Source: Desulfitobacterium metallireducens DSM 15288
Lineage (GTDB): Bacteria; Bacillota; Desulfitobacteriia; Desulfitobacteriales; Desulfitobacteriaceae
NCBI RefSeq assembly: GCF_000231405.2
Contig: NZ_CP007032.1
Location: 744,001-808,000, forward strand
Direction of reading: 5' to 3'
Length of the DNA stretch: 64,000 nt
A program made the translations under genes and the position numbers. The notes under the pieces are model-generated. The model did no database searches and was not told where the DNA came from. It saw only the letters and a program-made list of their open reading frames with translations. Of this stretch, positions 23,225 through 62,555 are shown piece by piece; the stretch's first letter is position 1; each line of letters opens with the position of its first letter.

Positions 23225-23304
23225 TTTTAAGCTTTTTAATCTAATTAAAGGGATTTTGGCAATATCTCTAGAATTATCAGAGACAAGAATGAAATGAATA
23301 ATTA

Positions 23305-23495
23305 GAAATCAAGGTTCCTCTTCGGAGGATGAAAAGGGAAGCCGGTGTAATTCCGGCGCGGTCCCGCCACTGTGAAACAAGGAGTTCCTTTCGATATACC
23401 CACTGGGAAACTGGGAAGGGGAAGGGAGCATCGACTTGAAGCCAGGAGACCTGCCTTGAGCATTTACTTAACCTACGAGCGATAGGGGATGAGTT
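23305..23495 (+). promoter_or_regulatory. Cobalamin riboswitch
   Basis: The class hallmarks are present in order: GAAAAGGGAAGCCGGTG, AATTCCGGCGCGGTCCCGCC, CACTGTGA and the B12 box AGCCAGGAGACCTGCCTT (23440-23457). It precedes cbiET and should repress the downstream operon when adenosylcobalamin is high, through the terminator at 23521. Confidence 0.93.
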
Positions 23496-58693: not shown

Positions 58694-59893
58694 TTAATTC
58701 TGTTTATGTTGGGTATTTGAGACTTCAGTTGCTTTTCTTTGAATTCTAAGCAACTTACTGGCAATAAAAGATAAAAATACAGATCCAGCACTAAAGAGTG
58801 CACCCATTTTAGCAGCTCCTTGAAGACTTGGATCAGTAAAGGCTACACCAGCTACAAATAAGGCAACGGTAAGTCCCATTGATGCGACCAGCCCAGCAAC
58901 AAAAAGGTCTTTATGATTCATTCCTTTAGGTAGCGGAAAACCGATTAAAGCGGAAAGTGAACCCATTGTGAAGACCCCTAATGTTTTGCCAATGACTAAG
59001 GCAAAAAATACTAACCAAGTCACTGTACTGATTCCCGAGAACTGAACACCTGCATTCGTCAAACCAAATAATAAGAGCCCAAAATCGACGAAGATTTTCC
59101 AATCGTGTTCAAATTCCTTTAAAGTTGAAGGGTCTGGATCTTCGGGATCGTCTTCAAACAGACCGGCCTGCTCTTTTGTAGGATGCGGCAAAAATGGAAC
59201 AATAAAGACTAAGGCAAGCGATGAATGGATACCGGTTAAATAAAGACCGATCCAACTCAATGTTCCTCCGAAGATAATATATGGCCAGTAGTTTTTAACA
59301 TTCTTTTTTCTCAAAAAGTAAGCAATTAACATTCCAGTAAGCGTAAACAATAGCCACACAGGAGCTATTGGATTTAACGGATCAGGATAAAAGAGGGTAA
59401 TGATTAAAAGACCAATTCCATCATCTGCGATCGCTAATAATAATAAAAAGGAAACAGCCGGATGATATGCTCCGAAGACAAGTCTGGCAACTAGCCAGGC
59501 TAAAGCGATGTCAGTCGCAGTAGGAATTCCCCACCCTTTGAGAAAATCGGGGCTACCCATAAAGTGATTAAGAACTAGATAAATAACGACTGGACCAATA
59601 ACTCCACCAAAGGTTGCCATAATAGGGCTGATAGCCCGTTTAAGGGGATTTAAGTCCCCACCGGGTAATAGACTTTGGGTGATTTCCACTGTCGCCATAG
59701 CGAAAAAGAAGACCATAAAAATATCATTGACAAAAAAGTGAAGTGAGAAATTACCGAATAATTTATTGTGAACAAAGTGATTGTAGCTTTCAGGTGTTAA
59801 ATTGGCCCAGATTAAAGCCATTATTACGCCTGCAATAAGGGGAATCGAAAATTCTTGTAAGAAATTAATCCTTTTCCTTGTTTGATCTGTCAC
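58694..59893 (-). CDS. nhaA: NhaA-family Na+/H+ antiporter
   Basis: A 399-residue protein with about eleven helices. VNDIFMVFFFAMATVEI, the ion-site GWGIPTATDIALAW with the paired aspartates region, LLALAIADDGIGLLII-like LLLAIADDGIGLL and GMGL-type ending motifs fit NhaA. It exchanges Na+ for H+ across the membrane. A GTG at 59893 (MTDQTRKRIN) follows AAGGAGGGAATTAACT; the frame is open 24 codons further up inside the leader terminator, so the GTG is the start. A c-di-GMP-I riboswitch and terminator precede it. Confidence 0.92.
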   Translation of the reverse strand: MTDQTRKRINFLQEFSIPLIAGVIMALIWANLTPESYNHFVHNKLFGNFSLHFFVNDIFMVFFFAMATVEITQSLLPGGDLNPLKRAISPIMATFGGVIGPVVIYLVLNHFMGSPDFLKGWGIPTATDIALAWLVARLVFGAYHPAVSFLLLLAIADDGIGLLIITLFYPDPLNPIAPVWLLFTLTGMLIAYFLRKKNVKNYWPYIIFGGTLSWIGLYLTGIHSSLALVFIVPFLPHPTKEQAGLFEDDPEDPDPSTLKEFEHDWKIFVDFGLLLFGLTNAGVQFSGISTVTWLVFFALVIGKTLGVFTMGSLSALIGFPLPKGMNHKDLFVAGLVASMGLTVALFVAGVAFTDPSLQGAAKMGALFSAGSVFLSFIASKLLRIQRKATEVSNTQHKQN

Positions 59894-59908
59894 AGTTAAT
59901 TCCCTCCT

Positions 59909-59951
59909 TAAAAAATAAAAGGAGAGCAGTCCTAAAAAGGAACCGCTCTCC
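59909..59951 (-). terminator. Riboswitch terminator upstream of nhaA
   Basis: Reading leftward GGAGAGCGGTTCC and GGACTGCTCTCC pair, followed by TTTTATTTTTT. It lies between the aptamer and the nhaA ribosome site. Confidence 0.88.
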
Positions 59952-59967
59952 CCTGAGAAGTTCAAAA

Positions 59968-60066
59968 AACTTGTAGCTTGGCGATCTTAGCTGATGTTTG
60001 CTCATGTAATCAACCGTAGACCCATAGCTTTAGCGTCCTTCGCTTTCACGAAGTTTACCCCAACAC
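59968..60066 (-). promoter_or_regulatory. Cyclic di-GMP-I (GEMM-I) riboswitch
   Basis: Reading leftward from 60066: GGGTAAACTTCG, a GAAA-type tetraloop hairpin (CTTCGTGAAAGCGAAG), then GGACGCTAAAGCTATGGGTC and a closing AGCTAAGATCGCCAAGC. Order and bases match the GEMM-I consensus (AAAC…GAAA…GACGCAAAGCC…GGG). It is followed by an intrinsic terminator and nhaA. GEMM-I variants can prefer cGAMP, so the exact ligand is open. Confidence 0.82.
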
Positions 60067-60198
60067 AATAAAAGATTATACAATTATTAGTATTCTACAA
60101 TAATCAGATTGCAGATGCAATTCTTTTTGGATAGTATTTGATTTTTCTACAGAAAATAAGCATGATTGTATTTTAACTTCGAGAAGGAGGGTTTCGCG

Positions 60199-61084: not shown

Positions 61085-61705
61085 TTATTTTTGAGAGGTT
61101 TTTTTTGAAGTTACTCGCAGGCTTCTTGAAAGCTTAGGCGAAGAAGGAACATGGGTATGATGCGCCTGTTTATGACTGTGTTCCTGGTTGTGGACATGAG
61201 TATGCTCATGCTCATGCTCATGCTGAAGGCCTAACATATGTGCAACTAAATGATCTTTATCCTGAAGCTGATCAAACCAGCCATCATTAGCATCTGATTT
61301 GAGGTCAATTGCACGAATATAGGGTTTGAGATCTAGTAACGGGGTGCCATTATAGACATCAATTCCAGAAATCAGAATTTCGTTTCCTTCAATCCCCTTT
61401 AACTCGACGATGCTTAAGCCGATTGGGTTGGGACGTTTGGGGGAACGACTGGCGAAGATGCCAACTTCTATTTCCGGTGCCCAGGAAGGATGAATATGAA
61501 GATTAATGTTTTCTTTAATTTGGTCTAAATAAAAGAAAACATAAAGATAGCGGTAAGTTAGTAGTTGATCGAGGCCTGCTTGATACTCTGGATCAAGTGT
61601 TATCCAGAATTCACCAGGGGCGTTTTCTGGGGGTTGATGAGGGATTGGAAGTCCTGGAAGATAAGGAGAATGAATAGTACCAATGGATTGTAATTGAATC
61701 TTCAC
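61085..61705 (-). CDS. TrmO-family (TsaA-like) methyltransferase with histidine-rich tail
   Basis: About 206 residues. The first ~150 form a TsaA/TrmO barrel: IQLQSIGTIHSPYL, ITLDPEYQAGLDQL, FASRSPKRPNPIGLSIVEL and DLKPYI, which in TrmO methylates N6 of t6A37 in tRNA with AdoMet. The tail is HEHEHEHTHVHNQEHSHKQAHHTH, encoded by repeated CATGCT-type codons. Such a tail is typical of nickel or cobalt handling, and upstream lie a CbiO-type ATPase and CooT, so a metal-linked role is possible. The start is GTG at 61705 behind AAAGGCAGG; longer frames reach back into the ATPase gene. Confidence 0.8.
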   Translation of the reverse strand: MKIQLQSIGTIHSPYLPGLPIPHQPPENAPGEFWITLDPEYQAGLDQLLTYRYLYVFFYLDQIKENINLHIHPSWAPEIEVGIFASRSPKRPNPIGLSIVELKGIEGNEILISGIDVYNGTPLLDLKPYIRAIDLKSDANDGWFDQLQDKDHLVAHMLGLQHEHEHEHTHVHNQEHSHKQAHHTHVPSSPKLSRSLRVTSKKTSQK

Positions 61706-61763
61706 TGAAAATACCTGCCTTTCGTTCATCCATGTTAAGAATCGTGCAATTCTGAGAAATACG

Positions 61764-62555
61764 TCATAATCCACTGTGTTGACGTGCAGCTCCAACATGA
61801 AAATGGGAACGAGTATGAATAAGGTTAACGTCTAAGAGCAACTGGCGATCAGAGAGAAGAGGAAGACAGGCACCATCAGCTGCAATAGTATGATCTTCGC
61901 GAAAGATAATCACACGTTCGGCAATATCCTCGACAATGGAGAGATCGTGTGTTGCTGTAATAACTGTTTTACCGCTCGAATGCAAGGCACTTAGAAACTC
62001 TACCAGCCAGTATTGAGTTCTAGGATCAAGTCCATTTGTGGGTTCATCAAGAAAAAGAATATCAGGATTGACAGATAGCACACTAGCTAATGCAACCTTT
62101 TTCTTCTCTCCTCCGCTTAAATGGTAGGGTGGGCGGTCAAGTAAGTGAGTAATGCCTATGAGTTCCGCGATATCCTGGATGCGTTCAGAAGTGACTTCGG
62201 GAGAGAGTCCCGCTTGGAGCGGAGCAAAGGCTAGTTCATCGCGGACCGTCGCTGAAAACAGCTGAGCATCTGAATTTTGAAAGATAAAGCCTATTCTTTG
62301 ACGAAACTCTGAGAGAAAAGTTCGTTCCTGCAAGGACTTCTCTGTAACTTCTCTGCTAAAAGCGATAAGGGTTCCTGAGGCTGGATGAAGCAAGCCACTG
62401 AGTATCTTGAGTAGGGTGGATTTTCCGCATCCGTTAGCCCCAAGAATAACAACGCTTTCTCCTGGAAAGAAACTTAACGAAATATCTGAAAGAACATTTT
62501 CGTGTTGAATATAAGCATAGGAAAGATGACTGAGCTCAAGAATGGGAGCTTGCAT
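61764..62555 (-). CDS. CbiO-type (ECF, cobalt/nickel) ATP-binding protein
   Basis: A 263-residue ATPase: Walker A LGANGCGKSTLLKILSG, FIFQNSDAQLFSATVRDELAFAP (the ECF/CbiO Q-loop with N-x-D-x-Q-L-F), LSGGEKKKVALASVL, ILFLDEPTNGLDPRTQ. This version belongs to energy-coupling-factor importers for Co2+ or Ni2+. Its membrane partners (CbiM/CbiN/CbiQ) are not adjacent. It overlaps cooT by 20 bases and is translated right after it. The CooT partner tips the guess to nickel, but the cobalamin operon makes cobalt possible too. Confidence 0.9.
   Translation of the reverse strand: MQAPILELSHLSYAYIQHENVLSDISLSFFPGESVVILGANGCGKSTLLKILSGLLHPASGTLIAFSREVTEKSLQERTFLSEFRQRIGFIFQNSDAQLFSATVRDELAFAPLQAGLSPEVTSERIQDIAELIGITHLLDRPPYHLSGGEKKKVALASVLSVNPDILFLDEPTNGLDPRTQYWLVEFLSALHSSGKTVITATHDLSIVEDIAERVIIFREDHTIAADGACLPLLSDRQLLLDVNLIHTRSHFHVGAARQHSGL

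Follow-up and report, generated by a model that had tools for sequence, protein, structure and literature searches.

A GEMM-I-fold riboswitch variant that precedes Na+/H+ antiporter-type genes and probably has an altered ligand

The outputs ascribed to GEMM-I riboswitches have been motility, surface and redox genes, with c-di-GMP or cGAMP as the ligand, and the question raised by the nhaA leader of Desulfitobacterium metallireducens DSM 15288 is what such a fold does before a Na+/H+ antiporter gene and which ligand it reads. The leader was studied within a window of 64,000 nucleotides (contig NZ_CP007032.1, positions 744,001 to 808,000, forward strand), in which a preliminary description had placed a c-di-GMP-I riboswitch with terminator, followed by nhaA, at 59894-60066. 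Scanning of the whole window with cmscan gave two matches in all, to the cobalamin riboswitch and to c-di-GMP-I; the latter, at 51.9 bits (E 2.9e-7) against a gathering score of 35 for RF01051, spans the full model (1-87/87), in keeping with the proposed fold, and the limits given were correct within a few bases. The only terminator-like site between 59800 and 60250 is a strong one followed by nhaA, and the Pfam match of the downstream open reading frame agrees with that gene assignment (Table 1). The cobalamin riboswitch (119 bits; 23295-23472, plus strand) lies between CbiD-like and CbiE/T-like genes of a cobalamin biosynthesis cluster. Divergent from the riboswitch-nhaA unit is a gene for a manganese catalase (PF05067; 60199-61038, plus strand) with a proline-rich C-terminal tail; a TrmO-like protein whose C-terminal tail is rich in histidine is encoded at 61085-61798 (minus strand), adjoining a cobalt/ECF-type ATPase gene.

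Table 1. Features of the nhaA leader and its gene, in window coordinates.
Feature	Position	Strand	Basis or remark
GEMM-I-fold aptamer (variant)	59969-60069	-	Rfam RF01051, 51.9 bits; own variant models R1-R3
P1 5′ strand GUUG	60061-60064	-	GUUR in all members; partner is CAA at 59973-59971; position 9/97 co-variation
Residue adjoining G21 equivalent (aligned with Vc2 G20)	60059	-	G here; class G/U/A
P2 hairpin, GAAA tetraloop	60038-60053	-	All six pairs with both-side changes in alignment A5
Inserted U 3′ of C46 equivalent (J2/3), variant hallmark	60032	-	Pyrimidine in 59/59 (U 56, C 3)
P3 with tetraloop-receptor side	59975-60029	-	Helices 4-6 of A5, 93-99% paired
P1 3′ strand CAAG (first C is C92 equivalent)	59970-59973	-	AAG alternatively pairs with antiterminator CUU (predicted)
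Antiterminator hairpin GAACUUCUCAGGGGAGAGCGGUUC, overlapping terminator 5′ arm	59940-59963	-	Folding; pairs kept in relatives
Intrinsic terminator stem-loop, then T-rich tract to about 59910	59918-59954	-	Terminator scan, alignment A5
nhaA Shine-Dalgarno AAGGAGGG	59902-59909	-	Sequence; eight bases upstream of GTG
nhaA, Na+/H+ antiporter, 399 aa	58694-59893	-	PF06965, 218.8 bits, E 1.4e-64; GTG start at 59893
Likely -10 box TATAAT	60075-60080	-	Sequence only; unlisted by consensus promoter scan

Relatives of the leader were sought with covariance models. The first (R1), built from four nhaA leaders, gave 40 matches above 100 bits in 74 genomes of the order, where ordinary GEMMs scored no higher than 70 bits. 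Scores of a second model (R2), built from those matches, were bimodal in 83 genomes of the class, where 40 places reached at least 135 bits and the next best only 69. A phylum sample of 399 genomes added six places at 78-106 bits, the following ones, at 74 bits or less, being canonical, and R3 yielded 18 places in the class of genome G414, 15 of them new. In total 61 variant places were read in Bacillota, and they share one rebuilt core and platform; the alignment used below (A5) holds 61 rows, corresponding to 60 places (one entered twice) and 59 distinct sequences, while the 61st place is a second copy in G036. RF01051 was passed by 10 of the 11 relatives scanned with Rfam and was the best clan match, rather than RF03167, for this leader and ten matching relatives; release 15 of Rfam files the variant under c-di-GMP-I. 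The marks proposed for an antiporter-GEMM variant, namely a score gap to canonical GEMM-I, the J2/3 insert, GUUR/YAA and an antiporter gene downstream, are all present here, and by these sequence marks the element is a member of a discrete set, separate from ordinary GEMM-I. A pattern scan of IMG/VR gave no match. The literature search found no link of GEMM to nhaA or nhaB; the 2017 survey of GEMM variants (Weinberg) lay outside it, so a prior mention is possible. A diverged leader before nhaA in genome G069 (L153, 1088-1223), with a similar terminator and scoring 20.8 bits, is perhaps degenerate or a further variant.

The pairing with nhaA proved to be no isolated oddity. At every one of the 61 variant places, the first gene of appreciable length that follows on that strand encodes an antiporter-type transporter, beginning 22 to about 680 bases from the leader. 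The targets comprise NhaA (PF06965; 7 places), NhaB (PF06450), ArsB/NhaD-type proteins (PF03600/PF02040) and one Na+/H+ exchanger (PF00999), as established by a Pfam run on representatives (PF06450, 687.7 bits; PF00999, 183.5 bits; PF06965 and PF03600/PF02040) and, for the other targets, by obvious sequence likeness; the PF03600/PF02040 proteins, relatives of NhaD, are likely Na+/H+ antiporters. Lower-scoring matches in the same searches were canonical GEMMs before chemotaxis, HD-GYP, GGDEF and flagellar genes, and no overlap was seen between the target genes of the two groups. The host genome (3.18 Mb, one contig) has seven GEMM-I matches, of which the nhaA leader scores lowest; the others precede genes for cell-wall-binding-repeat proteins, chemotaxis receptors, an HD-GYP protein and an FG-GAP-type repeat protein, as read from their translations, and such genes are customary GEMM targets. 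The preliminary description had guessed well that sodium and pH homeostasis would be an unusual GEMM output; the canonical GEMM-I of these genomes stand mostly before chemotaxis, HD-GYP, GGDEF or surface genes. In places two variant leaders lie about 2 kb apart, each with its own NhaB gene, so that tandem nhaB copies have separate copies of one switch (L169, L170, L171, L174, L172).

Within the family, nhaA orthologues were found in 6 of 46 genomes. In one sister genus, three genomes (G003-G005) have the leader, terminator included, before nhaA, and the leader-nhaA unit is constant between G000 and these three while the neighbouring genes differ. The remaining two family orthologues lie at a contig edge (L118/L008) or have no such leader (L122/L009). 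The contigs around the closest nhaA homologues (L008-L087) yielded no GEMM, whether by Rfam in the 20 scanned or by R2 in all of them, so the GEMM-nhaA pairing is not general for nhaA.

In Vc2, A47 stacks directly 3′ of C46. Together with G20 and C92 it contacts the ligand, and a change of G20 costs 30,000-fold in binding (PMC4744006); binding is reported to require A47, which all class I members conserve (PMC9049102). Variant sequences have a pyrimidine immediately 3′ of the C46 equivalent in 59/59 cases and never A, with AA following one base later, so that none of the 59 has the A directly 3′ of C46 that marks c-di-GMP-I. Beside the G21 equivalent stands G in 47, U in 7 and A in 5. At the C92 equivalent, which is C in this element, C, U, A or no base is found (U, A or absent in 10/59, U in 7/59); positions 9 and 97 read G-C in 49 and A-U in 6 of the 59, the A-U sequences coming from essentially one clade, and U at the C92 equivalent is accompanied by A at position 9 in six of seven cases. 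The C92 equivalent is thus apparently paired in P1 with a 5′ partner. The family's canonical GEMMs show GACGC-AAA (a few GACAC-AAA), have no insert and end nearly always in CC (exceptions L006, L113 and L115). An extra pair joining the inserted U to the residue beside G21 was considered and rejected: it fits 38 of 46 (G-U, A-U), fails for U-U members and leaves members with a J1/2 one base shorter unexplained.

Changes in three pocket strands combined with an exclusive gene context are of the kind that revealed earlier riboswitch variants (discussed in PMC7266159), and here they argue against canonical c-di-GMP binding, although they do not name the ligand. Of the original label, c-di-GMP-I riboswitch, the fold stands and the ligand is doubtful, the Vc2 contacts G20, A47 and C92 not being kept as a set in the element or its relatives. 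The further suggestion that the ligand might differ is in line with the changed pocket, while cGAMP, the candidate then named, does not agree with the G at the G20 position of this element. Two leaders elsewhere in the host genome, before HD-GYP and chemotaxis receptor genes (L004, L005), are GEMM-I of canonical length in which A occupies the G20 position (AAGAGC), a hallmark of variants that sense cGAMP; the relatives L096, L099, L100, L104 and L108 share this feature.

In A5, 97.9% of pair cells are standard, both sides vary in 25 of 36 pairs, and the pairing measures exceed those of all 500 shuffles and all slid versions; since A5 was fitted to the model, these statistics lean towards structure, with P2, P3 and the terminator carrying most of the signal. 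The P2 and P3 helices, with tetraloop and receptor, are present in 93-100% of cells with compensatory changes, and the aptamer has loop and junction bases that are invariant. The terminator has 15 pairs and, folded alone, reaches -23.7 kcal/mol (z -4.6); across the 59 sequences 12 of its pairs are aligned, 97% paired, and 9 show both-side changes.

Until the terminator 3′ arm is transcribed, the best predicted fold of the leader is a hairpin, GAACUUCUC-AGGG-GAGAGCGGUUC (-7.8 kcal/mol), that absorbs the terminator 5′ arm. Its stability does not exceed that of shuffles, so its support comes from conservation rather than energy: the four nhaA leaders keep all of its pairs, and in distant members the hairpin is re-established from different bases, for example (GACUGCC/GGGUAGUC, GACUACU/GGGUAGUC, GACUGCU/GGGCAGUC and CUACU/AGUAG). 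An alternative antiterminator, formed by aptamer CUAC and terminator GUAG, was rejected, that pairing not being kept in this element. Control would be exerted at transcription termination, the conserved antiterminator competing for the 5′ arm of the strong terminator. The P1 3′ strand CAAG, able to pair with the antiterminator CUU in most members, would pair either with GUUG, forming P1 in the signal-bound state, or with CUU; signal binding would hold CAAG in P1, free the antiterminator and turn nhaA on. An ON switch is the most likely direction but is only weakly suggested, because the antiterminator is no more stable than shuffles, the competition between it and the aptamer involves 3-5 pairs only, AAG/CUU is replaced by CGG/CCG or weaker in the second clade, and in members from the class of G414 the competing pairing is short or different.

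Taken together, these findings make it probable that the leader is a riboswitch on the GEMM-I scaffold belonging to a separate variant class that serves Na+/H+ antiporter genes, with a rebuilt pocket, improbable binding of c-di-GMP in the known way, and termination control that is probably ON. The class, its pocket changes, its gene association, the terminator and the conserved antiterminator can be read from the sequences themselves; the ligand is probably altered. P2, P3 and the tetraloop-receptor are kept while the pocket at the three-way junction is rebuilt by a pyrimidine insert, a variable residue beside G21 and an apparent pairing of the C92 equivalent in P1, and it is this rebuilding that makes c-di-GMP bound in the known way an improbable ligand. 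Some observations run counter to this reading: Rfam assigns the leader to c-di-GMP-I above the cut-off, and most members, this element included, have the G and C of Vc2 at the G20 and C92 positions. Both speak for a c-di-GMP-I riboswitch of the ordinary kind whose core has drifted but which still binds c-di-GMP, a Bacillota lineage having put Na+/H+ antiporters into its c-di-GMP regulon. Canonical GEMM-I coexist in the genome, so c-di-GMP is probably in use there, and GGDEF proteins are encoded in all 25 variant-bearing genomes checked, so that c-di-GMP is not excluded by absence; being found in all genomes, however, GGDEF counts do not separate the ligand hypotheses. Such drift is nevertheless unlikely, if worth serious attention, given a U or C at the A47 position in every sequence, a C92 equivalent that co-varies with position 9 and is replaced by U or A, or absent, in some members, and target genes in which no overlap with canonical GEMMs was seen.

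If the ligand is altered, changed recognition of a cyclic dinucleotide and sensing of Na+ or pH are weighed about equally. The messenger c-di-AMP is known for K+ and osmotic control. Few changes are needed to shift GEMM-I specificity, Vc2 with G20A/C92U binding c-di-AMP (PMC9049102) and A20 variants sensing cGAMP (PMC7266159, PMC9481103), and pocket residues vary within the class; yet A at the G20 position is found in only 5/59 sequences and U at the C92 position in 7/59, six of those seven with A at the apparent pairing partner, and a variant reading c-di-AMP or cGAMP is rather doubtful. Direct sensing of Na+ or alkaline pH by an ion switch on the GEMM scaffold is marginally more doubtful still. 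It would account for one leader common to four antiporter-type Pfam groups, and Na+-I and Li+ riboswitches precede such genes, but an ion-site motif was not identified in the element and the GEMM scaffold is known only for cyclic dinucleotides. The absence of nhaB among their targets was used to argue for Li+ over Na+ as the ligand of the Li+ riboswitches (PMC9646797); by the same logic the frequent association of the variant with nhaB would point to Na+ or pH rather than Li+, if the ligand is an ion. That the leader is plainly terminator-attenuated, its aptamer a ligand-free relic, is very improbable: the strong terminator and the diverged 20.8-bit leader of G069 would fit, but not the extensive compensatory change in the aptamer helices across 59 sequences or the loop and junction bases that never vary.

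Discrete and conserved, found nowhere but in front of Na+/H+ antiporter-type genes and rebuilt in its pocket, the variant is a candidate case of one more shift in ligand specificity on a very common bacterial riboswitch scaffold, and its gene context points to a ligand tied to sodium or pH. Tentatively, it may even be a new class on the GEMM scaffold that has abandoned cyclic dinucleotides and senses Na+, pH or another ion-stress signal, switching on several antiporter families in Bacillota, though this is rather unlikely. Should the variant bind c-di-GMP instead, that messenger would be linked to ion homeostasis, a link not found reported in the literature searched.

With c-di-GMP-I (GEMM-I, RF01051; Vc2) the variant shares the P2/P3 fold, the GAAA tetraloop and its receptor, the GACGC signature, the position before a gene and the terminator. 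It differs in the pyrimidine 3′ of C46, the variable residue next to G21, CAAG/CAAC with apparent P1 pairing in place of CC at the C92-C93 end, a conserved platform and targets of antiporter type only. The cGAMP variants of GEMM-I (A20) likewise keep the scaffold with few pocket changes, but theirs is A for G20, found in this class in the minority given above and not in this element, and the junction insertion is extra. The c-di-GMP-I-GGC class (RF03167) and other named GEMM-I variants are also variant pockets of the same clan, although the variant leaders match RF01051 best. Models of the Li+ and Na+ riboswitches gave no match in the Rfam scan of the window; Li+-I and Li+-II (nhaA-I, nhaA-II) and Na+-I (DUF1646) resemble the variant in preceding nhaA or other Na+ transport genes, whose expression these known classes switch on, but nhaB, which the variant precedes, is never a target of the Li+ classes (PMC9646797).
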